Part shown: positions 8,323 to 18,611 of the stretch, one piece after another
Layout: every line of letters begins with the position of its first letter
Position numbering within the stretch: the first letter of the stretch is position 1
NCBI GenBank assembly: GCA_937864815.1
Contig: CALMJY010000080.1
Coordinates: forward strand, 1 to 36,116
DNA from: an uncultured Bacteroidota bacterium
Lineage (GTDB): Bacteria > Bacteroidota > Bacteroidia > Bacteroidales > VadinHA17
Length of the DNA: 36,116 bases
Reading direction: 5' to 3'
The notes under the pieces: generated by a model
Seen by the model: the letters and a program-made list of their open reading frames with translations, nothing else
The model's database searches: none
What the model was told of the DNA's origin: nothing
Position numbers and translations under genes: made by a program

Positions 8323-9090
8323 TCAGGCTGATAGAGAGTTTAACTCAGGGATTCGGGATTGTGTTTTCCAGTGTTTTTCTTTAACAGAGGCTTTGTTTTC
8401 CTTTATCATTTCATATTTAAGTGTTTCTGTATCAAGTATTATACCCTGGAATCGTCCCATTGAGCAGGAACCACAATTCAGGTATCTTTTCTTTTTGTTC
8501 AGATAGTAGGTATGATGTGATTCAAGTTTATGTGTGTGACCTAGAATTACTACATCATATTCCTTAAGCAATTTTAAAGCATAAGAGAGATATTTTATCC
8601 TGTTGTACTTTTTAGGAATGTGATTAATCTGGTCATCAAGTGCCACTATCTTAAGATATAAATCCATTGTCCATTTGCTATTCTTAAGTTTCTTAAGCAG
8701 GTTAAAGCCTGTTTTACTGATTATGTATCCGATCTTTGATCCGTTAAACCAGTCTGCAAGGTGACCATGTTCTATATGGATTACCTGACCACTGGAATTG
8801 GTTATCTGATAATGATTCAGACCAGTTGGATTGAATATATCATGGTTTCCTTTGATGAATATAAAGTCCTTACGGCCAAAAAATTTGAAAAGTTTTGGAT
8901 TTGCTTTTTTAATATCACCCATGCGGTATTTAAGCAATTCAAAAATATCTCCGTTTAATATCACATTATCAATTGAATATTTATTTATTATAAACTCTAT
9001 CTCAGATATCAGTTCAGATCCCTTCCACTGGAATGTACCGAATGAATCACCGTTATCAATATGAAGATCAGATATTATAAGTATATTCAT
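8323..9090 (-). CDS. Calcineurin-type metallophosphoesterase (LpxH/PlcP-like)
   Basis: 255 residues with a full set of dinuclear-metal motifs: DLHID (D8, H10), NGDIFE (D48), KGNHD (N82, H83), EHGH (H108, H110) and GHTH (184-187). This is the UDP-2,3-diacylglucosamine pyrophosphatase-like (COG2908-type) branch. That branch contains both LpxH (lipid A synthesis) and PlcP, the Mn-dependent phospholipase C that frees diacylglycerol from phospholipids in phosphate-starved bacteria. The start overlaps the end of an MGDG-synthase-like glycosyltransferase gene by 23 bp, which implies coupled translation and a shared pathway; that favours a PlcP-like role. A lipid A role cannot be excluded from sequence alone. 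Confidence 0.85.
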   Translation of the reverse strand: MNILIISDLHIDNGDSFGTFQWKGSELISEIEFIINKYSIDNVILNGDIFELLKYRMGDIKKANPKLFKFFGRKDFIFIKGNHDIFNPTGLNHYQITNSSGQVIHIEHGHLADWFNGSKIGYIISKTGFNLLKKLKNSKWTMDLYLKIVALDDQINHIPKKYNRIKYLSYALKLLKEYDVVILGHTHKLESHHTYYLNKKKRYLNCGSCSMGRFQGIILDTETLKYEMIKENKASVKEKHWKTQSRIPELNSLSA

Positions 9091-10225
9091 GTTGTGTGTT
9101 GAAATTAATCAGGTACTCTGAAACCGGGCCTACTCCGTTGCAGATAGAAGCCTTCCTGATATTAGCCACATGTGATTTATAAAAGTCTTCATCGTTTAGA
9201 AGTCTTGATACAATAGCAGGTATCTTTTTTGTGTTTTTTTCGAATATGCCCATATCTTTTTTGCAAATGAAATCTTTGTTTCCTTTCTCCTGCTCCCATA
9301 TATAGTTATTGATTATCTGGACTTTTCCCAGAAGAAGTATCTCCATGAATGTTGATGCACCGCATTTTGTAATAACTATATCAGAGATGCTTATCAGTTC
9401 ATGAACATTGTCAATGAAACCATATATTTTAAGATTCTCAGATGAATATTTTCTTTTTATTTTACATATATGATCATACATTTTTCTGTTCCTTCCACAA
9501 ACAACAGCTACCTCTGCATTTATATTATTGATAATTATTGATTTCAGTATTTTTTTCCCTCTGGGCATGCCATCTCCGCCTCCCATAATCAGTATTACTT
9601 TGGAATCATCACTGAAACCCAGCTTTTTTCTGATTACATTTTGTTTCACTCTGCCAGGTTGCCTGGAATATCTCTGATCAAGGACAAATGGAAATACTTT
9701 CATTCTTTTATTATCCAAACCTTTACTGATGCATTTTTCCTTCAGCATATCGCTGAAAAGAATGTAGTTCTGATCTTTTCTGATAAACCATATCGGATGA
9801 GCTGTAAATGGATCTGTAACGACAGTAATAACAGGTATATACAGTTTATTTCGTTCAATTACATTATACACAGGAGTTATGAGGAAAAAATGAAAGATTA
9901 CTATTTTTTCAGGTTTGCTAACCATAATTTCTTTTTCAATCAGCCCCTCAATAAACCATGAAACTATGTATGAAGAGAGTACAGAAATCAGCCTGATCTT
10001 GTGTAGTGCATACAGGAATTCGAAAACCCAGACAGCTTTATTTACTGAATTTCTATAGCCGTCTTCTATTATATACCGTATTATGGGATTGGCTTTTGCA
10101 AGACCGTCGGCGAGAATAATCTCTACTTCATTTTTCTTTTTGTTTTTTATTTTTTCTGCAACTGCTTTTGCAGGAGCAAGATGCCCTCCACCGGTTTTAA
10201 GATAAAAAAACAAATACTTTTTCAA
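9068..10225 (-). CDS. MGDG-synthase-like glycosyltransferase (GT28 type)
   Basis: 385 residues in a GT-B fold. N-terminal half: TGGGH (11-15), the family's glycine-rich acceptor loop, and VVTDPFTAHPIW (135-146), matching the MGDG_synth domain. C-terminal half: IMGGGDG (213-219) and DIVITKCGASTFMEILLLGK (282-301), the nucleotide-sugar site. The likely reaction is transfer of a hexose from a UDP-sugar to diacylglycerol or a related lipid at the inner membrane. It is translationally linked with the downstream phosphoesterase gene (23-bp overlap), which could supply the diacylglycerol. A TAGTTTTG box (10249-10256) and an upstream GTT-N8-GTTACA site (10267-10283) suggest its own regulated promoter. 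Murein MurG is a distant relative but lacks these motifs. Confidence 0.88.
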   Translation of the reverse strand: MKKYLFFYLKTGGGHLAPAKAVAEKIKNKKKNEVEIILADGLAKANPIIRYIIEDGYRNSVNKAVWVFEFLYALHKIRLISVLSSYIVSWFIEGLIEKEIMVSKPEKIVIFHFFLITPVYNVIERNKLYIPVITVVTDPFTAHPIWFIRKDQNYILFSDMLKEKCISKGLDNKRMKVFPFVLDQRYSRQPGRVKQNVIRKKLGFSDDSKVILIMGGGDGMPRGKKILKSIIINNINAEVAVVCGRNRKMYDHICKIKRKYSSENLKIYGFIDNVHELISISDIVITKCGASTFMEILLLGKVQIINNYIWEQEKGNKDFICKKDMGIFEKNTKKIPAIVSRLLNDEDFYKSHVANIRKASICNGVGPVSEYLINFNTQHEYTYNI

Positions 10226-10248
10226 AACAGGGAGTATTGTTTATATGG

Positions 10249-10283
10249 CAAAACTATAACACATTTGTTTTTAAAGTGTTACA
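10249..10283 (-). promoter_or_regulatory. Candidate regulated promoter of the glycosyltransferase-phosphoesterase pair
   Basis: TAGTTTTG on the minus strand (10249-10256) fits the -7 consensus, with no TTG at 19 bp. Instead, ten bases upstream, GTTTTT-AAAGT-GTTACA (10267-10283, plus strand) forms an 11-bp-phased direct repeat like those before other genes of this block. The segment 10257-10281 is also an imperfect palindrome (TAACAC...GTGTTA). Confidence 0.35.
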
Positions 10284-10314
10284 AATAAGTAAAGATGTTG
10301 TTAATTAAATATTA

Positions 10315-11637
10315 CTATCTCTGGAGAGGATCATTGCTTATTTTATAGGCGCCTGTCTGAAGCAAATCAATTATATTATATGTGCCATATTTCCTCCCCT
10401 TCAGGAATCCAAGCCAGGCTGCCTCAGCAAGTTTACCTTTCCTATGAAGATCGCCAAGCCACTGATTAGTATACCTGATATTCAGTTGTTTAAATCCTGA
10501 TCCTGTTTCTCGCAGCCATCGTCTGTTGCATTTTTCCTGTGGACCGATTGGAGGAGTTAATATTAAAGGTATGCCAAGTGCACTGTAAAATGACATTTCA
10601 CTAGGCTTCGTCCATAAAACATCTGTTTCAGGAAGTATCTGATTGAATTTATTGAAGTATTCTTCTGTTTCATTATCCCAGATCACTTTTATATTGTTGC
10701 TTCCTCCGGAATGCTTCTCCCTTATATTGTCATAGTATTCGAATATCTCTTTTCTTGTACCGGCCACAAGATTCAGTTTTATTTTCCCTCTTGCTATTTC
10801 ATCGGAAAGACTCTCGGCAATTTGCCTGCCAATCTCTTTCTGTGCACCTGCTCCACCAACAGCGAAAGTTATAGTCAGATAATTACATTCATTTAATGGA
10901 TTGTTTATCAGGGCTTTGTCATAGTCAAGATAAGCGTTAATACTGTGTTTGTATAAATTGTAAAATCTACCTTCATGATCCAGATTCATGAGCCTCCTTA
11001 TAAGATTCTTCTTTAGAATGTTTAATGATCTGTCACCCAGAAGTTCAAGAGGCAGTGGAAATCCGGTCAGGTGTATGTTTTTACTTGGAACACCATACGA
11101 AAGGAGTCTTTGTTCAGAAATTGATCCGGAGGCAAAATATTCAATGTTACTTTCGTATGGTTTTTCAGAAACCCATACTCTGCTGATATCTGTATCACAG
11201 ATTATACAGAATATTTTTTTGTGTCCAGCCATATCAGCAGCGATTGCAATTGAATAAAATGATGTTACAAGTGGAAGCTCAGGATCAGTTATACGGCTAA
11301 TGACACCAGCCCCAAGACCATTTCTGATTCTTCCTTTTAACAACTTTACCTGAAAGGTTTTTCCGGATCTGTCTCCGGACGGATAATAATTTGGAATATA
11401 AAGTAATTTGTCAATAAACTTAGTGAATAAAATACCTATCACCGGCAATTTTGATGCCCTTGAAACATATTCGTATCCAGCTCTGATAAGTGCCCACATT
11501 TTTAATTCTCTGCGTGTTGCACCTTCCATATTGTTGGCATTCAGGATAACTCCGTTATAAGCCAGCTGCTTTAGCGGATATATTCCTCTATGATGTCCAT
11601 ATCCCATATCTGTCGACACTAACCAGAATCGCTGCAT
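10315..11637 (-). CDS. GT-B-like protein of unknown acceptor (MGDG/MurG-like architecture)
   Basis: The frame is open from 11697, but the ATG at 11637 has an AGAAGG ribosome-binding site 7 bp upstream and gives MQRFWLVSTDMGYGHHRG, so I use it (440 aa). DMGYGHHR (10-17) takes the place of the TGGGH loop of the neighbouring glycosyltransferase, CDTDISRVWV (147-156) corresponds to its TDP..HP.W segment, TFAVGGAGAQ (257-266) is a Rossmann glycine loop, and TKPSEMSFYSALGIPLILTPPIGPQEK (343-369) corresponds to the C-terminal sugar-nucleotide site. I infer a divergent GT-B enzyme acting on a lipid. The family is not one I can name. It is divergent from the SDR gene and lies 89 bp before the MGDG-like gene on the same strand. 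Confidence 0.7.
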   Translation of the reverse strand: MQRFWLVSTDMGYGHHRGIYPLKQLAYNGVILNANNMEGATRRELKMWALIRAGYEYVSRASKLPVIGILFTKFIDKLLYIPNYYPSGDRSGKTFQVKLLKGRIRNGLGAGVISRITDPELPLVTSFYSIAIAADMAGHKKIFCIICDTDISRVWVSEKPYESNIEYFASGSISEQRLLSYGVPSKNIHLTGFPLPLELLGDRSLNILKKNLIRRLMNLDHEGRFYNLYKHSINAYLDYDKALINNPLNECNYLTITFAVGGAGAQKEIGRQIAESLSDEIARGKIKLNLVAGTRKEIFEYYDNIREKHSGGSNNIKVIWDNETEEYFNKFNQILPETDVLWTKPSEMSFYSALGIPLILTPPIGPQEKCNRRWLRETGSGFKQLNIRYTNQWLGDLHRKGKLAEAAWLGFLKGRKYGTYNIIDLLQTGAYKISNDPLQR

Positions 11638-11833
11638 AAATTTACCTTCTATGATTATCAGTAAATATGAAGCAGAATTATTACATATAAATTTCATTCT
11701 GTTAACAAAAAAGTTAATGAAAAAACAGAAAATTACATAATAGTTAATTAATTGTTAATAAATCAGATATGGAATATGTGATATGCTATTTGTTCCATAT
11801 CTTTCATAATTATTAGTAAAAAGTCATCTGAAA
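11638..11833. promoter_or_regulatory. Divergent control region with perfect palindrome and phased GTTAAT repeat
   Basis: This 196-bp AT-rich spacer separates the GT-B-like gene (minus) from the SDR gene (plus). AGATATGGAA (11765-11774) and TTCCATATCT (11793-11802) are a perfect 10-bp inverted repeat around an 18-bp centre, an operator-like layout about 30 bp before the SDR start. GTTAAT-TAATT-GTTAAT (11743-11759) is a direct repeat with 11-bp phase. No consensus -33/-7 pair was found. Confidence 0.45.
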
Positions 11834-12763
11834 ATGCGACACACGATTCTTGGTATCGACAGTTCATTGAGCAAATCCCTTGCAACTGAACTTTTAACTG
11901 ATTCACACAATCTTGTCAGGATTGTAAACCATCATGAATACTGGATACCTGGAACCGAAACTTTACCTCTTGATCTTACATCAGTTGAAGAAATCAGGAA
12001 AGCGATAACCGGTTCAGATATAGTATACCTTTTTGCTTCTCACATCCCCATGGACAGGCATATGCAGGAAAACTGGATTAGGATTGTAAAGGCTTCAATT
12101 AAGGCATGCAAATGGACAAATTCTAAATTTATATATGTTGATAATGCAGATATATACGGACGTTTCAATGGCAGAATAACAGAAAATACTCCCTGCAGAC
12201 CATGCACTGATTCAGGTAAGGTTCTTCTGGATGCAGCATTACTTGTTGAACATGAACTTCCTGGTCAAACTTTCAAGTGCATAATTTGCAGAACAGCAGA
12301 TATATACGGTCCTTATACAAATAGCGCTAACTACTTGAGATATAATGTTATAGAACGTATCCTCAGGAATAAAGTTCCTCGCTGGTTCATAAATGATGAA
12401 ATGCAGCATTCCTTTACCTTCACAACTGATATTGCCCGGGCAATAAGAATGTTGGTAATGAATGAAGACTCTAATAATCAGATATGGCATCTGCCAACTG
12501 AAAATTCCCTTTCAGGGCAGACTTTAATTCATATTGTTTCAAACATTGTAGGGTCCGATCCATACTATACAGTTTTATCAGGAGCTTCTTTATGGATGGA
12601 AGCCTTGTTAAATAAAGAAGTGTCAGTAAATTATAACAGAGCTTACAGATTTGAGAACGGAATTATTTTCGATTCATCAAAGTTTAATAGTGCATTCAGC
12701 TATAAACCTGTTTCATATTATGACGGGATGAAGCTGACAATCGATTATTTGATTGAAGCTTAG
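11834..12763 (+). CDS. NAD-dependent epimerase/dehydratase-like SDR with degenerate active site
   Basis: 309 residues with the extended-SDR plan: an N-terminal Rossmann strand, YLFAS near 65-69, FIYVDNADIYG (99-109), a second RTADIYGPYTNSANYLRY (153-170) and a C-terminal substrate part. The hallmark residues are altered: the glycine-rich loop reads GIDSSLSK (7-14) instead of GxxGxxG, and at the YxxxK site TDSGK (125-129) keeps Lys129 but has Thr125 in place of Tyr. It may still bind a nucleotide or be a non-catalytic or atypical enzyme. It is the only plus-strand gene of the lipid block, and its last 68 bp overlap the 3' end of the convergent OlsF-like gene. Confidence 0.72.
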   Translation: MRHTILGIDSSLSKSLATELLTDSHNLVRIVNHHEYWIPGTETLPLDLTSVEEIRKAITGSDIVYLFASHIPMDRHMQENWIRIVKASIKACKWTNSKFIYVDNADIYGRFNGRITENTPCRPCTDSGKVLLDAALLVEHELPGQTFKCIICRTADIYGPYTNSANYLRYNVIERILRNKVPRWFINDEMQHSFTFTTDIARAIRMLVMNEDSNNQIWHLPTENSLSGQTLIHIVSNIVGSDPYYTVLSGASLWMEALLNKEVSVNYNRAYRFENGIIFDSSKFNSAFSYKPVSYYDGMKLTIDYLIEA

Positions 12764-14516
12764 TGTCTTTCGATAATTGAATCCTCATTTCAAATGGTAA
12801 ATCTTCAACAGCTGCTATCATAAGAGCATCAAGACAATTATTGAAGCTGGCATCAATATTGAAACAGATTACATTTCCATTCATCGCCAGGTATTTTTTA
12901 AGCAAAACCGGGATTTCAAAGCCTGGCTGAATAATTGATAGTTTTTTTTCAAAGGCCCTTATATCACTATCCATATCTTCAAGAATCAAAGCATTTTCTA
13001 TCTGCAGATAATAGGGTATGATGAATGGCTTTGTTGGTTTGACGAACTTAGCAAGATTTGAGTTAAAATAAAATCTGTTTATATAATTAACAATCAGGCT
13101 TTTATTTTTTGCAGAATAATCGTTACTGATACTTACCGGTCCGATAATATATTTAAGTTCCTGATTTAATTTCATGAATTGAAATATTCCCTTCCATAAA
13201 AGCAGTAGAGGGAAATGCTGCCTCTGATATTCCTTCAGGATAAAAGATCTGCCCAATTCGGCCGATTTACTGATTATATCCGCAAAACCAGCTTTTAACC
13301 GGAAAAGTGAACTGATATAAAACCCTGTAATACCAAATTCCGACATAATTTCACTTCCATGTCCGATACGGTAGGCTCCTGCTATCTGTTGAGTATTCCT
13401 GTCCCAGAGGAAAAGGTGGTAATAATGACTGTCAAATTTGTCCAGATCAAGAGCTTTATTTGATCCTTCACCTACTGAACGGAATGTAATCTCCCGTAAT
13501 CGGCCGATCTCCGTCAAAATGTTTGATATTCCGGATGCTTTACTGCAATATACTGCAAGATTGTTCTTTTCAAGGAGAAGACACTTCTCAGGAAGCTTAT
13601 CAATTTCCGACTGCATAACAAGAGAATTTACGGGGTCGGCAATAATACAGTTTTGCATTTTAAGACTACGGGGACGGGAGAGAAAGAAGTAACTGTTAGC
13701 GGCAGTTTTATTTAATGAATAGGTCAGATTCCTCAGATAATCAGACAGGTCATTTATTGTATTGAAGCTGTTTATCGTTTCAGGGTTTACAGGTTCACCA
13801 AAATATAAGTTGATTCTCCTGTGACTGCTCTTCATGATTTCTGAAGGCAACATAGCAGTCCTGAAAAGAGGATTTATCATGCCAGCAAGATAAAATCTCA
13901 TACTGTTCCTTGCTCCGAATAAAACTGGTATTATCCTCACTCCGGACGAACGGATCATTTTAACAGATGATGGTTGCCATTTTCTGTCAGTTATGCTCAT
14001 TGTATGACTCTGAAATGAAGAAACTTCGCCGGCAGGAAACAGCCCCAGAGGTTTACCGGCAGCTAAATGCTCCAGGGCACCCTTAATGCCACTGTACGAA
14101 GACCTTTGTGATTTCAGTTCTTCAAAAGGATTTACCGGAAATATGTAATCTCTAAGGGGTTCAATATTCGTCAGAATGAAGTTGCCCTGTATCTTAAAAT
14201 CGGGCCTTATTCTGCATATTAACTTAAGCAATATCAATCCGTCAATTCCTCCCAATGGGTGATTTGAGATGATAATGAATGGTCCATGTTTGGGAATTAT
14301 ATTAGTGTAATCACTATATACATTATACCTGATATCCAGTTTTTCAATTGCTTTGTCAATAAATTCCAATCCGTTGTATATACTTATCTCATCATATAAA
14401 AGATTTAGCCTCTTAATTGATAATATATTCATGATCTGCTCAACTTTCTTCTTTGATGCGACAGATTCCAGCTTAAGTATCTGACAGATTTCTTTTTCTG
14501 TAATAAAATAATTCAT
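12696..14516 (-). CDS. olsF: OlsF-like bifunctional acyltransferase (aminolipid synthesis)
   Basis: 606 residues with two acyltransferase domains. Residues 60-260 are a PlsC-type lyso-lipid O-acyltransferase with NHPLGGID (85-92) and FPAGE (160-164). Residues about 300-510 are a hemolysin-like GNAT (OlsB type) with REITFRSVGEG, HYYHLFLWDRNTQQIAGAYRIG and the long PVSISNDY...INRFYF segment. This order and length fit OlsF of Serratia and Flavobacterium, which makes ornithine lipids by N- then O-acylation. In Bacteroides the split homologues GlsB/GlsA make glycine lipids, so the amino acid head group is open. The product would be a phosphorus-free membrane lipid. The gene is 7 bp downstream of the DedA-like gene and overlaps the convergent SDR gene by 68 bp. 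Confidence 0.82.
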   Translation of the reverse strand: MNYFITEKEICQILKLESVASKKKVEQIMNILSIKRLNLLYDEISIYNGLEFIDKAIEKLDIRYNVYSDYTNIIPKHGPFIIISNHPLGGIDGLILLKLICRIRPDFKIQGNFILTNIEPLRDYIFPVNPFEELKSQRSSYSGIKGALEHLAAGKPLGLFPAGEVSSFQSHTMSITDRKWQPSSVKMIRSSGVRIIPVLFGARNSMRFYLAGMINPLFRTAMLPSEIMKSSHRRINLYFGEPVNPETINSFNTINDLSDYLRNLTYSLNKTAANSYFFLSRPRSLKMQNCIIADPVNSLVMQSEIDKLPEKCLLLEKNNLAVYCSKASGISNILTEIGRLREITFRSVGEGSNKALDLDKFDSHYYHLFLWDRNTQQIAGAYRIGHGSEIMSEFGITGFYISSLFRLKAGFADIISKSAELGRSFILKEYQRQHFPLLLLWKGIFQFMKLNQELKYIIGPVSISNDYSAKNKSLIVNYINRFYFNSNLAKFVKPTKPFIIPYYLQIENALILEDMDSDIRAFEKKLSIIQPGFEIPVLLKKYLAMNGNVICFNIDASFNNCLDALMIAAVEDLPFEMRIQLSKDTKLQSNNRLSASSRHNMKQVYS

Positions 14517-14523
14517 GTATTAA

Positions 14524-15105
14524 TTATTTTTTAATAGGAATAGATCTGATTCTTATGTTTCTGGTAAGGATAAGTAGCTTAAGAGGTTTCTTAATAAGCA
14601 GGGACAGGAGCATAAACTTAAGTAAATGGCTGATAATAACAATGATGATGAAAATAAGCAGGCTCTTTTGCAAGGCTCCTGAAGCCAGTGCAAAGATTAG
14701 ATATGGAATAGGCAGGAATGAAGCAAAAAAGAGTATCCAGTGATTCCATACCGAATACATATTGATTGCTAAATTAAATTTTTCCTGAGTTAAGGCAGGA
14801 ACAATTTTTATAAGGAAATCCGGCAAATGCAGTGAATTTCCTTCTGTGAAATCTGCCAGCTGCAATCCCAGATAATAGGAAATAATTGACCCGGATACTA
14901 TACCTGAGATGCTCCATACTGTAAATACAATTGTCTTCCTTGGAAACTGGGATATAAGAAGTACAAAAAGTGTTGCCACAGGAGCAGGAAATAATGTGGC
15001 ATCGATAAGTCCAAAAATAAACAGAATAAATGAAGCGTATCTGATCCTGTTATATCTGATTATCCATTCCTTAGTCTTTTTTATGGAAGACTTCAGCATA
15101 CTCAT
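14524..15105 (-). CDS. DedA/VTT (SNARE-associated) family membrane protein, YqaA-like
   Basis: 193 residues with about five hydrophobic segments and the small-VTT layout: FIFGLIDATLFPAPVATLFVLL (35-56), a GSIISYYLGLQL re-entrant region (about 84-95), and FLPIPYLIFALASGAL (143-158), where the conserved proline-rich turn sits. VTT proteins are linked to lipid scrambling or undecaprenyl/phospholipid flipping. ATG 15099 (third residue) has AAGGAA at a better spacing than 15105, so the true start may be two codons in. It lies 38 bp after the DUF2934 gene and 7 bp before the OlsF-like gene, probably co-transcribed. Confidence 0.8.
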   Translation of the reverse strand: MSMLKSSIKKTKEWIIRYNRIRYASFILFIFGLIDATLFPAPVATLFVLLISQFPRKTIVFTVWSISGIVSGSIISYYLGLQLADFTEGNSLHLPDFLIKIVPALTQEKFNLAINMYSVWNHWILFFASFLPIPYLIFALASGALQKSLLIFIIIVIISHLLKFMLLSLLIKKPLKLLILTRNIRIRSIPIKK

Positions 15106-15143
15106 TTCCTTATGTGATCGGAATCAAGCTGAAAAGAAAGATG

Positions 15144-15353
15144 CTAACCTCTTAAATACTTTTCGGCCTGATACCAGTCATCATCAGGCGTTCCGTTGAT
15201 ACCTGCTTCGGTCCTTAGATTATATAATTCATTTGCTTTTAACCTGATTGATACCTCATCAGGTGCATTTTCCTGTTTATTACGTTTTAATGATTTTCTG
15301 GCAGTTAATTTTCCTTTGCTACTACTGACAGTATTCTCGTTTTCTGTTTTCAT
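15144..15353 (-). CDS. DUF2934-type mini-protein
   Basis: 69 residues: a basic, low-complexity N terminus (1-32, many Lys/Arg/Ser/Asn) and a C-terminal helix pair SIRLKANELYNLRTEAGINGTPDDDWYQAEKYL split around residues 35-68. The pattern 'A.ELY..R...GxxxxxxDDWxxAE' matches DUF2934, usually found in small soluble proteins of unknown role. It is the first gene of the DedA-OlsF unit. A -7-like TATTTTTG box (15382-15389) lies about 30 bp upstream. Confidence 0.75.
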   Translation of the reverse strand: MKTENENTVSSSKGKLTARKSLKRNKQENAPDEVSIRLKANELYNLRTEAGINGTPDDDWYQAEKYLRG

Positions 15354-15381
15354 ATTTTCAATCTTTGAATGAATTATGGAT

Positions 15382-15415
15382 CAAAAATATAGCAGCGATG
15401 TAACAAAATGAGAAC
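15382..15415 (-). promoter_or_regulatory. Candidate activator-dependent promoter of the DUF2934-DedA-OlsF unit
   Basis: TATTTTTG (15382-15389) fits TAnnTTTG, but no TTG is 19 bp upstream. In its place, nine bases upstream of the box, GTTCTC-ATTTT-GTTACA (minus strand, 15399-15415) forms an 11-bp-phased direct repeat. Replacement of the -33 element by such repeats is how Pho boxes work in other phyla. This is read by eye only. Confidence 0.35.
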
Positions 15416-15584
15416 AATTTTAATTCATTTTAATTACGCTTTGGTTAAGAATATAACGGAGCAAATACAATTCTTCAGACTGTTCTCCTGATAACAATGA
15501 TTAGAGGCATTAATACATAATTAATAATCTGAAATACTTCAGATCAGTATATTAATAACAGGATAGATAAAAAGTCGATGAATG

Positions 15585-15607
15585 ACAGGTAAAATATAAC
15601 TACCTGT
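15585..15607. other. Small hairpin downstream of the second DUF47 gene
   Basis: ACAGGTA (15585-15591) pairs with TACCTGT (15601-15607) over a 9-nt loop. A short T-run follows only on the plus strand, whereas the adjacent DUF47 gene (ending at 15624) is on the minus strand. It may stabilise the 3' end, but it is not a good terminator for that gene. Confidence 0.35.
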
Positions 15608-15623
15608 TTTATAACTTATTAAT

Positions 15624-16274
15624 TTAAGCCATTTTAATTAAAATAGTCTTCAGAGTATCAGTTACATCCTCCTCCTCATCGACACATCTCTCAAGAATTT
15701 CGAGGATTTTATTGTTTTTAAGTAATTCTTTTGGATCGGTTTCATTTTCAAATAATTGAGAAACACCTTCGAAGTATAATTCGTCAGCTCTGTGTTCAAT
15801 TTCCTTAACTCTATCGCATGCTGATGAGATTTTGTTCTTATTTGCAGCAGGTTCGTTAAGGCAATCCACAGCATTTTTTATTTCTATGGCAGCCTTATGT
15901 ATAAGTTTTGTCATTTCAATATATACAGGCATAATTTTTTTTGGCTTATAAAGACAAATCCTTCTGCTTATGCCGTTTATAGAGTCAACAACATCGTCGA
16001 TGTTTGCAGTAAGCTCATGTATATCTTCCCTGTCGAATGGGGTAATAAATGATTTATTAAGTTGTTCGTATGTCTTATTTGTAATCTCATCACCAATATG
16101 CTCAATATCTTTAATTTCCTTATTGAGTCTATCGTGTTCATTAGGATCTTCGCTTAACATAAGTTCTTTTAACTTAACAGATGCTTTTACAAGGTTTTCT
16201 GCATCACTCTCAAATAAAGGGAAAAAAGAACGGTCTTTCGGAACAAAGATCTTAAGAATGCTGTCAATATTCAT
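15624..16274 (-). CDS. DUF47/PhoU-like phosphate-transport partner protein (copy 2)
   Basis: 216 residues, an all-helical PhoU-like bundle. Signature segments are FVPKDRSFFPLFESDAENL (10-28), IKDIEHIGDEITNKTYEQLNKSFITPFDREDIHELTANIDDVVD (about 54-97) and VKEIEHRADELYF (155-167). The E/D-rich motifs bind metal clusters in PhoU relatives. It aligns end to end without gaps with the 216-residue copy at 16669-17319. DUF47 proteins pair with PiT transporters and are thought to gate them. This copy has lost its partner: only a collapsed PiT remnant (16303-16501) precedes it. Confidence 0.9.
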   Translation of the reverse strand: MNIDSILKIFVPKDRSFFPLFESDAENLVKASVKLKELMLSEDPNEHDRLNKEIKDIEHIGDEITNKTYEQLNKSFITPFDREDIHELTANIDDVVDSINGISRRICLYKPKKIMPVYIEMTKLIHKAAIEIKNAVDCLNEPAANKNKISSACDRVKEIEHRADELYFEGVSQLFENETDPKELLKNNKILEILERCVDEEEDVTDTLKTILIKMA

Positions 16275-16302
16275 GATTTCCAGATTTTTTTAAAATAATT
16301 TG

Positions 16303-16501
16303 TTAACAAAGTATATGATTAAGAATAAAATACGCTGTTCCACCGATAATTCCCGAAACCGAATTTGTTAGTATCTATGTTATGTGAGCAGCTTGAAGAG
16401 AGCCCCCACCGCCAGGTTAAGAGATTCGCTGAATCATGAAATCTATTTATAGAATCAAAAACCAGAACCAGTGCAATTATTATAATAATGAAAAATGACA
16501 T
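16303..16501 (-). pseudogene. Collapsed PiT phosphate transporter remnant
   Basis: Reading the minus strand from the ATG at 16501 gives MSFFIIIIIALVLVFDS then INRFHDSAN, matching residues 1-25 of the intact PiT (17338-18330). It jumps at Asn to NLLTWRWGLSSSCSH, matching PiT residues 90-104. After this point the PiT C terminus continues in the +1 frame: ILTNSVSGIIGGTAYFILNH (about 16315-16375) against the PiT segment starting ILTIPVSALISF, ending at TAA 16303-16305. At least two internal deletions and a frame change reduced a gene of about 990 bp to 199 bp. It keeps the spot directly upstream of a DUF47 gene, mirroring the intact pair. Confidence 0.88.
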
Positions 16502-16668
16502 ATTATACATTTATTTTTATAAATACACCGGATCAAATATATAAGTTAATGTACATATATAAAAAACTTTACAATTCCATCAGGAATTTAAATTCGCGGT
16601 AAAGTAAATAAAATACAACGACTTCGGAAAGGATTTTCAGGATAGATTTATCCAAGTTATCAACCAGG

Positions 16669-17319
16669 CTATACTATTTTTATTACGATTGTCTTAATAG
16701 TATTTGCCACTTTTTCTTCCTCATTTATACAACTTTCGAGGTTTTCCAGTATTTTGTTGATCTTAATAAGTTCTATGGTATCTGATTCCAGGGAAAATAA
16801 CTCATTTGCCCCGGTGAAGTATATATCATCTGCTTTATGTTCCCAGGATTTAATTCTACCGCATGCTTCGATTATATTTAGTTTATTACGTTCGGGGTCC
16901 TTTAACAATAAAATTCCAGTATGGATTTCCTTTGCTGCTTCCAGAATAAGACCTGTAATTTCAACAAAAGCCGGTATAAATCTATTTGGCCTGTACAATA
17001 AAATTCTTTTACTGATACTATGAATAAGATCTACAACATCATCAATATTTGCAGTAAGCTGATGAATATCTTCCCTGTCGAATGATGTGATAAATGATTT
17101 ATTGAGCTGTTCATATGTGTTTTTGGTAATCCTGTCACCCTCATGTTCCAGGTCCCTGATCTGATTATATATAAGTTCAAATTCCCCATGTGATGAATTC
17201 ATCATCATTTCCCTTAACAATCTGGCAGCATTTAGTAAATTACCGGCACTGGCTTCGAAAAGGTCAACGAATTTATGTTCTTTTGGAACAAATAGTTTAA
17301 GGAGTCTGTCTGCATTCAT
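16669..17319 (-). CDS. DUF47/PhoU-like phosphate-transport partner protein (copy 1)
   Basis: 216 residues, same helical PhoU-like family as 15624-16274: FVPKEHKFVDLFEASAGNL (10-28), IRDLEHEGDRITKNTYEQL then NKSFITSFDREDIHQLTANIDDVVD (54-97), SWEHKADDIYF (157-167). Acidic E-x-x-x-D motifs expected to bind metals are kept. It follows the intact PiT gene by 18 bp on the same strand, the standard PiT-DUF47 operon. The expected role is cytoplasmic control of phosphate flux through PiT. Confidence 0.92.
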   Translation of the reverse strand: MNADRLLKLFVPKEHKFVDLFEASAGNLLNAARLLREMMMNSSHGEFELIYNQIRDLEHEGDRITKNTYEQLNKSFITSFDREDIHQLTANIDDVVDLIHSISKRILLYRPNRFIPAFVEITGLILEAAKEIHTGILLLKDPERNKLNIIEACGRIKSWEHKADDIYFTGANELFSLESDTIELIKINKILENLESCINEEEKVANTIKTIVIKIV

Positions 17320-17337
17320 GAGCTGGTAAAATTTACT

Positions 17338-18330
17338 TTATGCCGGAAGAAATTGTTTTAGAATACTATATGAAACAAATGAAATGAGTGCTGAAACCGG
17401 GATTGTCAGAATCCATGCCCAGAAAATCTTGGTGGTGACACCCCATTTAACAGCAGATACACCTTTTCTTGCACCGGCTCCCATAATAGAACCTGTAATA
17501 GTGTGTGTTGTACTTACGGGAATTCCGAAATGTGTGGCTCCAAACAGGGTAAGGGCTCCGGCAGTTTCTGCACAGAAACCTTCAAAGGGTTTCAGCTTGG
17601 TTATTTTCTGTCCCATTGTTTTTACTATTCTCCATCCTCCGAATAGAGTTCCCAGGGCGATTGCAAAGTGACATGATAACACTATCCACAGATCTATAGG
17701 GTCATTTTTTGTAACCAGTCCCTGTGCTATCAGGGCTACCCAGATTATTCCCATTGATTTTTGGGCATCATTACCACCATGTCCAAGGCTGAATCCGGCA
17801 GCTGAAAGTAATTGCAATCTTCTGAAATGCTTGTCAACAGTAAATGGGGAGTAATTCCTTACAAGCCATAATACAAGTGCCATTATAAGAAAGGAGACAA
17901 ACATACCAAGCAAAGGAGCCACAACAATAAAAATAGCTATCTTGGCAACACCTCCGAGAATAACTGAATCCCAACCGGCTCTTGCAACTGCGGCTCCTAC
18001 CAGACCTCCGACAAGGGTGTGGGAAGAACTTGATGGTAAACCGTAATACCAGGTTATTAGATTCCATGAAATTGCGGCTATAAGTGCAGCAGTAATTACT
18101 GTAAGTGTAACTATATCAGGATTTATAACTCCTTTACCTATTGTGCCTGCAACCTTAAGCGGGAAAATAAGGAACGCAACAAAATTGAAAAACGCCGCCA
18201 TTGACACAGCAGCAATGGGAGACATAACTTTGGTTGAAACTATAGTAGCAATAGAATTTGCGGAATCATGGAATCCGTTTACAAAATCAAAAATCAGGAC
18301 AAGGGTAATAACAATTATCAGAAAAGTCAT
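17338..18330 (-). CDS. PiT-family inorganic phosphate transporter
   Basis: 330 residues, about ten hydrophobic helices, the compact PiT form normally paired with DUF47. Both inverted signature repeats are present: GFHDSANSIATIVSTK (19-34) and GFSLGHGGNDAQKSMGI near 197-213. The PSSSSHTLVGGLVGAA (99-114) and PVSTTHTITGSIMGAG (about 272-287) substrate-site loops are also intact. It imports phosphate as a metal-phosphate or with cations at the inner membrane. DUF47 copy 1 follows 18 bp downstream. The upstream spacer holds two GTTACA hexamers with 11-bp phase (18467-18483). The low-affinity role typical of PiT does not by itself imply starvation control. Confidence 0.95.
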   Translation of the reverse strand: MTFLIIVITLVLIFDFVNGFHDSANSIATIVSTKVMSPIAAVSMAAFFNFVAFLIFPLKVAGTIGKGVINPDIVTLTVITAALIAAISWNLITWYYGLPSSSSHTLVGGLVGAAVARAGWDSVILGGVAKIAIFIVVAPLLGMFVSFLIMALVLWLVRNYSPFTVDKHFRRLQLLSAAGFSLGHGGNDAQKSMGIIWVALIAQGLVTKNDPIDLWIVLSCHFAIALGTLFGGWRIVKTMGQKITKLKPFEGFCAETAGALTLFGATHFGIPVSTTHTITGSIMGAGARKGVSAVKWGVTTKIFWAWILTIPVSALISFVSYSILKQFLPA

Positions 18331-18611
18331 ATATGGTTTTTATTTTTTAGTATTTCAATAAAATAAAGTGATATTTTGCTTATTAAAAGATAGATAAATA
18401 TTGTAATGTATCTCTATTTTCCAACTTCAAATTAACGAATGAATAATGTAATATTTAACAGTTAAAGTTACATTATTGTTACATTTTTCACAATATTTAT
18501 CTGATAAATAACATCTCTGCCATAATAACAATAAAAACAGACGCTTTGCAATTAAAGACAATTTGTATTAATTTTAACAAAAAAATTAAATGAAAACTAA
18601 AACATCTGAAA
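18331..18611. promoter_or_regulatory. Divergent control region between pit and pepD with phased GTTACA repeats
   Basis: This 281-bp spacer is very AT-rich and has no gene. GTTACA-TTATT-GTTACA occupies 18467-18483 (plus strand), with TTAACA at 18455 and TTCACA at 18487 nearby, so four TTnACA-type hexamers sit within 38 bp. AATGTAA/TTACATT (about 18445-18474) also form an inverted repeat. No consensus -33/-7 pair was found for either gene. Confidence 0.4.

Follow-up and report, generated by a model that had tools for sequence, protein, structure and literature searches.

We analyzed a 36,116-bp contig (C80, referred to as the window) from a Bacteroidales genome of 4.66 Mb (348 contigs, 97% complete), in which positions 8323-18330 carry predicted lipid enzymes next to a phosphate transporter. 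Three of these genes form a conserved cassette: they encode a GT-B protein of the DUF6938 family (GTB), a lipid glycosyltransferase of the monogalactosyldiacylglycerol (MGDG) synthase/UgtP type (GT28), and a calcineurin-like metallophosphoesterase (MPE). We consider it probable that the cassette produces glycolipids during phosphate starvation, that in the clade of the window it is under PhoB control, and that it has landed at phosphate loci. The cassette probably swaps phospholipids for sugar lipids at low phosphate, since its genes travel together, one third of the loci have phosphate-uptake neighbors, and in the window clade the promoter is of the starvation type. The relevant features are as follows.

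8323..9090, minus strand: MPE, calcineurin-like metallophosphoesterase, PlcP-like candidate (Pfam Metallophos_2, 42.9 bits)
9068..10225, minus strand: GT28, MGDG-synthase/UgtP-type lipid glycosyltransferase (MGDG_synth 63.2 bits and Glyco_tran_28_C 37.5 bits, both above cut-off)
10249..10283, minus strand: Pho-box-type promoter of GT28, TGTAACA-N4-AAAAACA, 9 bp, TAGTTTTG (score 12.0)
10315..11697, minus strand: GTB, DUF6938 GT-B protein, usual upstream partner of GT28 (Pfam DUF6938, 47.2 bits)
11742..11759, minus strand: weak Pho-box-like repeat 5' of GTB (score 9.9, p 0.052)
17338..18330, minus strand: PiT phosphate transporter (PHO4, 326 bits)
18466..18483, minus strand: Pho box upstream of PiT, TGTAACA ATAA TGTAACT (score 17.3)

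When named genomes were scanned with an alignment of GT28, 79 loci were obtained (from the best 80 of 83 candidates); these were searched, together with loci L020 and L021, for the partner genes with hidden Markov models; the window was counted separately. GTB was found in 42 of these 81 loci, MPE in 23, and both in 15; the window carries both. In a set of 61 loci, consisting of the window and 60 loci from Bacteroidota, Ignavibacteriota, Cloacimonadota, and one unassigned record, GTB accompanies GT28 in 43 cases including the window. Counting only non-window, non-Spirochaete loci with at least 1500 bp upstream, the pair is seen in 39 of 52. GTB lies on the GT28 strand in all 42 non-window pairs and upstream of GT28 in 41 of them (-204 to +427 bp), the exception being L056, where it lies downstream of MPE. 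MPE directly follows GT28 on the same strand, at -43 to +257 bp, in all 23 non-window loci that possess it (24 of 24 with the window), and the distances among the three genes co-vary (r 0.71-0.88, 16 loci). Neither partner was found at the 21 remaining loci, 20 of which are titled Spirochaetes or Treponema and one Patescibacteria. The initial annotation had regarded the extra GT-B-like protein as a possible tailoring step; being a regular partner of GT28, it instead has a core role.

MPE was not found in 23 of the 24 genomes searched behind the MPE-less loci. Across 345 genomes of the phylum, seven strong matches were obtained besides the genome's own, and the three regions examined (L194-L196) all contain GTB-GT28. 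In the GT28 tree, which does not include L097, the MPE-containing rows form one group with L028 (support 93/80), apart from the long-branched L020 and L021. The simplest history would be an older GTB-GT28 pair, to which MPE was added by Bacteroidales-type genomes. The full cassette is present in two strains with DSM numbers, Natronoflexus pectinivorans DSM 24179 (L030) and Alkalitalea saponilacus DSM 24412 (L032).

Weak A2 matches (about 50 bits) were rejected as cassette homologs and identified as MurG, since the five regions containing them (L190-L193 and L198) were read by eye as mur/fts clusters, and a Pfam check of two L191 proteins revealed GT28 N and C domains without MGDG_synth in one case and FtsZ in the other. 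No relative was detected in a GT28 scan of viral sequences. Comparison with plasmids by tblastn gave no match for MPE and 11 records for GT28, with at most 27.6% identity among the matches listed. Two further arrangements deserve mention. The Spirochaete-type loci L098 and L100 contain a tandem pair of GT28 genes, perhaps a GTB-free two-step version. At L048 a different metallophosphoesterase gene (L048:8951-9874) precedes GT28, and GT28 is followed by pst genes and phoU, which could reflect an independent recruitment of a phosphoesterase.

In profile searches, GT28 aligns along most of its sequence with Arabidopsis MGD1 (1e-39) and also matches a processive diacylglycerol glucosyltransferase (1e-34). 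It scores above the cut-offs of PF06925 and PF04101, has the GGGH and QE-x-GN stretches in common with MGD1, and stays below the NCBIfam equivalog for diglucosyl diacylglycerol synthase (PRK13609, 150 bits, cut-off 500). GT28 thus resembles MGD1 and UgtP, a processive diacylglycerol glucosyltransferase, in family and conserved stretches, but differs from both in having GTB and MPE as gene partners, and its acceptor and sugar are predicted. Fold comparison with Foldseek, using models with a predicted local distance difference test (pLDDT) score of about 72, relates GTB to GT-B proteins including UDP-GlcNAc epimerases, WaaG, and MGD1. GTB keeps MGYGH-like and G.QE-like stretches, which may be functional motifs.

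As for MPE, its metal motifs D8/H10, GD48, GNHD81-84, H108, and H185/H187 are invariant in all nine sequences, so that it has the features expected of a PlcP, namely a calcineurin-like metallophosphoesterase with full metal motifs. It reaches no NCBIfam cut-off, and its best Foldseek match is LpxH (E 2e-8, template modeling score 0.45, model pLDDT 72.7). Assignment of MPE as LpxH was nevertheless rejected, because MPE has no TIGR01854 match and a separate LpxH-like protein is encoded on contig C305 (C305:4195-4887); the latter is the only TIGR01854 match in the genome, at 79 bits, below the cut-off of 190.35. Lipid A therefore need not depend on MPE, and the possibility raised in the initial annotation, that this phosphoesterase is the only LpxH of the genome, is not borne out.

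The second line of evidence is linkage to phosphate uptake. The uptake genes PstS, PstC/A, PhoU, PiT, and DUF47 were sought by tblastn (E 1e-8) within the sequence stretch of each locus. They are present in 8 of 24 MPE-containing loci (the window, L022, L024, L027, L034, L044, L045, and L046) versus 1 of 58 others (L048), an enrichment with a Fisher p of 1.5e-4, uncorrected for kinship. By chance, about 0.5 of 24 loci would have such a neighbor, an estimate based on 158 matches to PhoU and PHO4, fragments included, over some 153 Mb and likewise uncorrected for kinship. The linked loci fall into three places of the GT28 tree, namely the window clade, the clade of L034, L044, L045, and L046, and L048. 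Moreover, the window clade uses two phosphate loci: the cassette is found at PiT-DUF47 in the window, L024, and L027, and directly ahead of porin-PstSCAB in L022. The genome of the window has no PhoU match and three PHO4 places. The TonB receptor/Ig-domain pair located beside its own phoB/phoR-type genes has relatives in L028, L029, L037, L044, L045, and L046; in L041 only the TonB receptor has a relative.

Candidate PhoB sites were searched with a model of a TGTAACA repeat at 11-bp spacing, derived from 23 pst, phoU, and porin promoters of relatives, with no cassette promoter among them. This Pho-box model was inferred in the present analysis, and the literature yielded no published Bacteroidales box for comparison. 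The seed TGTAACA was chosen after viewing upstream regions that included those of cassette genes; four other seeds led to lower-scoring motifs. Shuffle p values cannot fall below about 0.0025 (400 shuffles) and are uncorrected for the number of promoters tested (42). In the window, the promoter of PiT scores 17.3 (p 0.002, the lowest value that 400 shuffles allow) and that of GT28 12.0 (p 0.010); that of GTB is marginal (9.9, p 0.052). For the GT28 promoters of the window and L022-L027, p ranges from 0.005 to 0.022. Over the whole window, six sites score at least 11, compared to a mean of 2.0 and a maximum of 6 in 60 shuffles, and one site, the PiT site, scores at least 17, compared to none; by score alone, therefore, only the PiT site stands out. 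The model scored nothing at the PiT gene of L024 (p 0.83), the second DUF47 gene of the window (p 0.90), MPE of L124 (p 0.68), and the porin gene of L022 (p 0.21). Among control regions, 10 of 103 score at least 12; most of them are intergenic regions shared with PiT, PhoU, or polyphosphate kinase genes, so the control set is not clean.

Two sites in the genome of the window match the pattern TGTAACA-N4-WGTAACW without mismatch, one before PiT (18466-18483) and the other before the phoB-type gene on contig C123, whose response-regulator and kinase are 68-76% and 59-66% identical to those of pst loci. With at most one mismatch there are 10 sites versus 4 for the reversed pattern; they include those of a TonB gene on C123 and of a CHAD gene near polyphosphate kinase, and 6 of the 10 have no evident phosphate gene adjoining. 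The CHAD-domain gene, on contig C5 (L155:3859-4737), has a one-mismatch site and also lies near a histidine-phosphatase-family gene. On C123 (L154:3965-11103) the phoB/phoR-type pair and the Pho-box-bearing TonB receptor/Ig-domain pair are retained, and about five TGTAACA-like repeats at 11-bp spacing were recognized by eye in the TonB promoter.

In the GT28 promoter, the box lies exactly 9 bp before TAnnTTTG, presumably the Bacteroidota -7 element, in the window and in all five aligned relatives (L022-L026). A composite of box, 9 bp, and TAnnTTTG, for which threshold, gap, and TAnnTTTG were set after viewing the GT28-promoter alignment, occurs once in the window (0 in 60 shuffles), 8 times in the 95.6 kb of the five relatives, and once in L124, with none in the shuffles. 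In the five relatives its copies lie at GT28 and, farther upstream, in front of GTB or of the position corresponding to it. No composite was found in cassette-free loci of the genus (215.7 kb), in 104.3 kb from the genome of the window, or in MPE-less loci (429.2 kb), and there is one in the Spirochaete loci (257.9 kb). Its strict pattern has four exact matches in 41 genomes, all of them before GT28 (the own genome, G005, G009, and G018), and six one-mismatch matches versus three for the reversed control. Of the six, the one in G043 is located between a PHO4 transporter and a PhoB-type regulator gene; another, in G038, immediately precedes a DUF2490 gene, and its contig also carries a PHO4 gene.

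Based on these data we propose the following scheme. At low phosphate, PhoB, likely encoded by the phoB/phoR-type pair on C123, would bind the 11-bp-spaced TGTAACA repeats before PiT and GT28. MPE, by similarity to PlcP, would cleave the phosphate head group off membrane phospholipids to give diacylglycerol, onto which GT28, as a member of the MGDG-synthase/UgtP family, would transfer sugar from a nucleotide sugar. GTB, to judge by its regular pairing with GT28, could add the other sugar of a diglycosyl lipid or make a partner lipid. The freed phosphate would be retained and PiT would import more. In this genome an OlsF-like aminolipid synthase and a VTT protein, added at the same site, would provide a second phosphorus-free lipid. 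A bolder and more tentative suggestion, which we would put forward as possible, is that DUF6938 is a new lipid glycosyltransferase family acting with GT28 as a two-enzyme glycolipid synthase across Bacteroidota, Ignavibacteria, and their kin. The Bacteroidales pair would then have acquired a distinct kind of phosphoesterase, different from LpxH, and, within the window clade, a PhoB promoter, yielding a remodeling system independent in origin from PlcP-Agt.

The principle is known, and it is the enzyme set that differs. In marine bacteria, plcP lies beside glycosyltransferase genes with putative Pho boxes, and Agt makes glycolipids (Sebastian et al., PMC4796936); the gene-order types 2, 3, and 5 of that report pair plcP with glycosyltransferases. 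The window resembles this system in the adjacency of a phosphoesterase gene and a lipid glycosyltransferase gene and in the putative Pho boxes (PMC4796936), but the cassette contains a GT28 of the MGDG-synthase family and a DUF6938 GT-B protein, has PiT/Pst neighbors and a Bacteroidales host, and its MPE is a PlcP-like candidate only. In Flavobacterium johnsoniae, the pf04101 glycosyltransferase Fjoh_0541 of the PhoBR operon, which also includes OprP, and the PlcP Fjoh_4577 are described as lipid-remodeling genes raised on phosphate depletion (PMC8115612). The likeness, at the family level, consists in a pf04101 glycosyltransferase tied to phosphate in the same phylum; there, however, PlcP is an orphan gene apart from the glycosyltransferase, and no GTB partner is named in the available part of that report (PMC8115612). 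Expression of pst in Bacteroides fragilis is reported to be PhoB-dependent (PMC3547664). No description of the cassette was found in open-licence titles and abstract openings on Bacteroidota/Bacteroidales lipid remodeling, MGDG synthase, and PlcP, nor any paper on DUF6938 (PF22053) in the open-licence literature. If the scheme is true, phosphorus-sparing lipid remodeling, best described in Proteobacteria, would also take place in environmental Bacteroidales, some of them from fens, through another set of enzymes. DUF6938 receives a first function hypothesis, the Bacteroidales Pho-box model can be tried on further genomes, and the DSM strains with the full cassette make the scheme testable in culture.

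Several observations weigh against a phosphate-starvation role. No uptake gene is present in the stretch examined at 16 of 24 MPE-containing loci, and polyphosphate kinase, which adjoins L025, also occurs within the stretches of the MPE-less L067 and L070. Moreover, few genomes carry the cassette: GT28 is found in 5 of 36 genus genomes, 0 of 24 others, and 6 of 247 genomes of the order. MPE is not strictly bound to GT28: G302, the genome of L028, has MPE separate from its GT28, G006 and G059 have MPE without GT28, and G034 has an MPE fragment. The only PDB sequence matches of MPE by profile are weak ones to SbcD. With respect to regulation, the Pho-box model mostly fails in other families. Among the cassette promoters tested there, only that of L032 falls below 0.05 (p 0.037), those of L034, L044, L045, and L046 having p values of 0.19-0.77; neither L032 nor L030 (p 0.53) shows a clear box, and the composite is absent from 277.7 kb of other-family MPE-containing loci as well as from L027 and its genome G017. 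As the composite layout was written from the GT28 promoters, only its rarity elsewhere is informative. The genome-wide pattern is circular in a similar way: its last letter, W, was set with the PiT site already known, and a stricter WGTAACA ending fits only the phoB site on C123.

These points bear on two other readings of the cassette. It could direct the constitutive synthesis of an ordinary envelope glycolipid, as the MPE-less form may do in Ignavibacteria, its phosphate neighborhood stemming from a few hot-spot insertions. That would agree with the 27 loci that have GTB, no MPE, and no phosphate-uptake gene, with the lack of an uptake gene at the MPE-containing L029, L030, L032, L033, L049, L084, and ten others, and with the variable gap between the cupin gene and PiT, which holds other genes in L024 and L124. 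Yet uptake linkage in three parts of the GT28 tree, the use of two phosphate loci within the window clade, and the Pho-box-type promoters of GT28 and PiT make us regard constitutive synthesis as rather unlikely. A still smaller probability is given to MPE acting not as a phospholipase C but on another phosphate ester, such as phosphatidate, a lipid-A or polyprenyl intermediate, or a glycosyl phosphate, with glycosyltransferases that do not use phospholipid-derived diacylglycerol. Here the support for MPE, which extends only to the general calcineurin-like fold and reaches no NCBIfam cut-off, has to be set against its tight pairing with an MGDG-synthase-type GT28 and the separate LpxH-like protein on C305. 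Glycolipid synthesis in response to phosphate starvation thus remains the reading that we prefer for the cassette.

The rest of the region contains the following features.

11834..12763, plus strand: short-chain dehydrogenase/reductase (SDR)/epimerase-family protein, GxxGxxG motif lost (Pfam Epimerase, 36.5 bits; alignment)
12696..14516, minus strand: OlsF-like fused acyltransferase, predicted aminolipid synthase (NCBIfam OlsF model over 11-573, 415 bits, cut-off 620)
14524..15105, minus strand: VTT/DedA-type membrane protein, directly upstream of OlsF (Pfam, 35.5 bits, cut-off 33.9)
15144..15353, minus strand: 69-aa open reading frame (ORF), possible DUF2934, sub-threshold (12.8 bits, cut-off 22)
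15624..16274, minus strand: DUF47 (PhoU_div), second copy (Pfam)
~16319..16510, minus strand: relic of a second PiT gene, internally deleted, between the two DUF47 genes (N-terminal residues, by eye)
16669..17319, minus strand: DUF47 (PhoU_div), first copy (Pfam)

ORFs for all genes named in the initial annotation are present at 8323-18330 in the ORF list, with Pfam and NCBIfam support. The gene order on the minus strand is PiT, DUF47, PiT relic, DUF47, 69-aa ORF, VTT, OlsF-like, GTB, GT28, MPE. The family labels and the contiguity given there hold for the genes, except that DUF2934 stays below its threshold and the SDR is encoded on the opposite strand and lacks the NAD motif, the GAGGSIG of its relatives in L023 and L025 being replaced by GIDSSLS. 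Since the SDR gene is opposite in strand and placed between other genes, the region is not a single operon; apart from the SDR, it contains at least two blocks of genes with a common direction, VTT-OlsF and GTB-GT28-MPE. The PiT relic has no Pfam match, and tRNA and Rfam scans of the window found nothing.

Nor does the full 10-kb set co-occur elsewhere, as had been expected of it: only GTB-GT28-MPE recurs, and in the stretches searched the other GT28 loci contain OlsF nowhere, VTT once (L024), and the SDR three times (L022, L023, and L025). Clustering of lipid genes with the phosphate importer into one module is thus upheld as far as the recurrence of the cassette beside uptake genes and the Pho-box-type promoters of PiT and GT28 are concerned, but not for the 10-kb set as a conserved module. 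The earlier interpretation is partly supported, and the claim that survives, that of a GTB-GT28-MPE cassette, is narrower and better supported.

Synteny with L127 and L128 extends over both flanks of the region, the one towards the cupin gene and the one towards pepD, and this speaks against a chimeric contig. In L127 and L128 the gap between the cupin gene and pepD is filled by an intact PiT-DUF47-PiT alone; L126 has PiT-DUF47 at the same place, the cupin gene not being recognized. In the window, MPE-GT28-GTB-SDR-OlsF-VTT and the 69-aa ORF occupy the gap between the cupin gene and PiT, and one PiT is reduced to a relic. By synteny, the cassette is thus placed with the cupin gene on one side and a PiT-DUF47-PiT locus, older than the cassette, on the other. 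The same gap contains MPE, a PAP2 phosphatase, and two other glycosyltransferases (of the GT2 and PMT types) in L124, and GT28-MPE, PAP2, and VTT in L024. Its content thus differs among relatives, which makes the cupin-PiT gap a variable site adjoining the phosphate transporter locus. It might also be envisaged that unrelated genes have accumulated by accident at a PiT locus undergoing decay, given the PiT relic, the motif-less SDR, and a GC content of 8323-17319 below that of most flanking genes. For the three core genes such an accumulation is already contradicted by the order, spacing, and co-variation of GTB-GT28-MPE that recur in other genomes and by the promoter layout common to the window clade; the SDR and the 69-aa ORF are still compatible with it, and as an account of the region we find it highly improbable.

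Finally, the window protein similar to OlsF, the bifunctional ornithine-lipid synthase, shares with it a fused two-domain architecture along most of the model, but scores 415 bits versus the 620-bit cut-off and is therefore termed OlsF-like only; it also differs in sitting beside VTT, and its aminolipid product is predicted. In a Bacteroidota strain with olsF, ornithine lipids were reported as constant over the tested phosphate levels (PMC12927429), which calls for caution with this part of the scheme. Its nearest full-length relative within the genus, 47% identical, is encoded in G017. VTT is directly beside OlsF also in L130/L102, and OlsF-VTT is a separate pair, located at another site in one relative (L130, genome G017). 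In L130 the pair adjoins a PALP-AIRS-type gene pair, which in L122 immediately precedes PiT-porin-PstSCAB (82.8% and 73.4% identity between L130 and L122); the AIRS-type gene is also found in L123. Beside three OlsF homologs of the order, Pfam identifies LysE-type translocators (L104:782-1411, L106:2241-2870, and L107:3201-3839). The occurrence of VTT in the place of LysE in the window and L130 suggests that it may be a lipid- or substrate-export partner.

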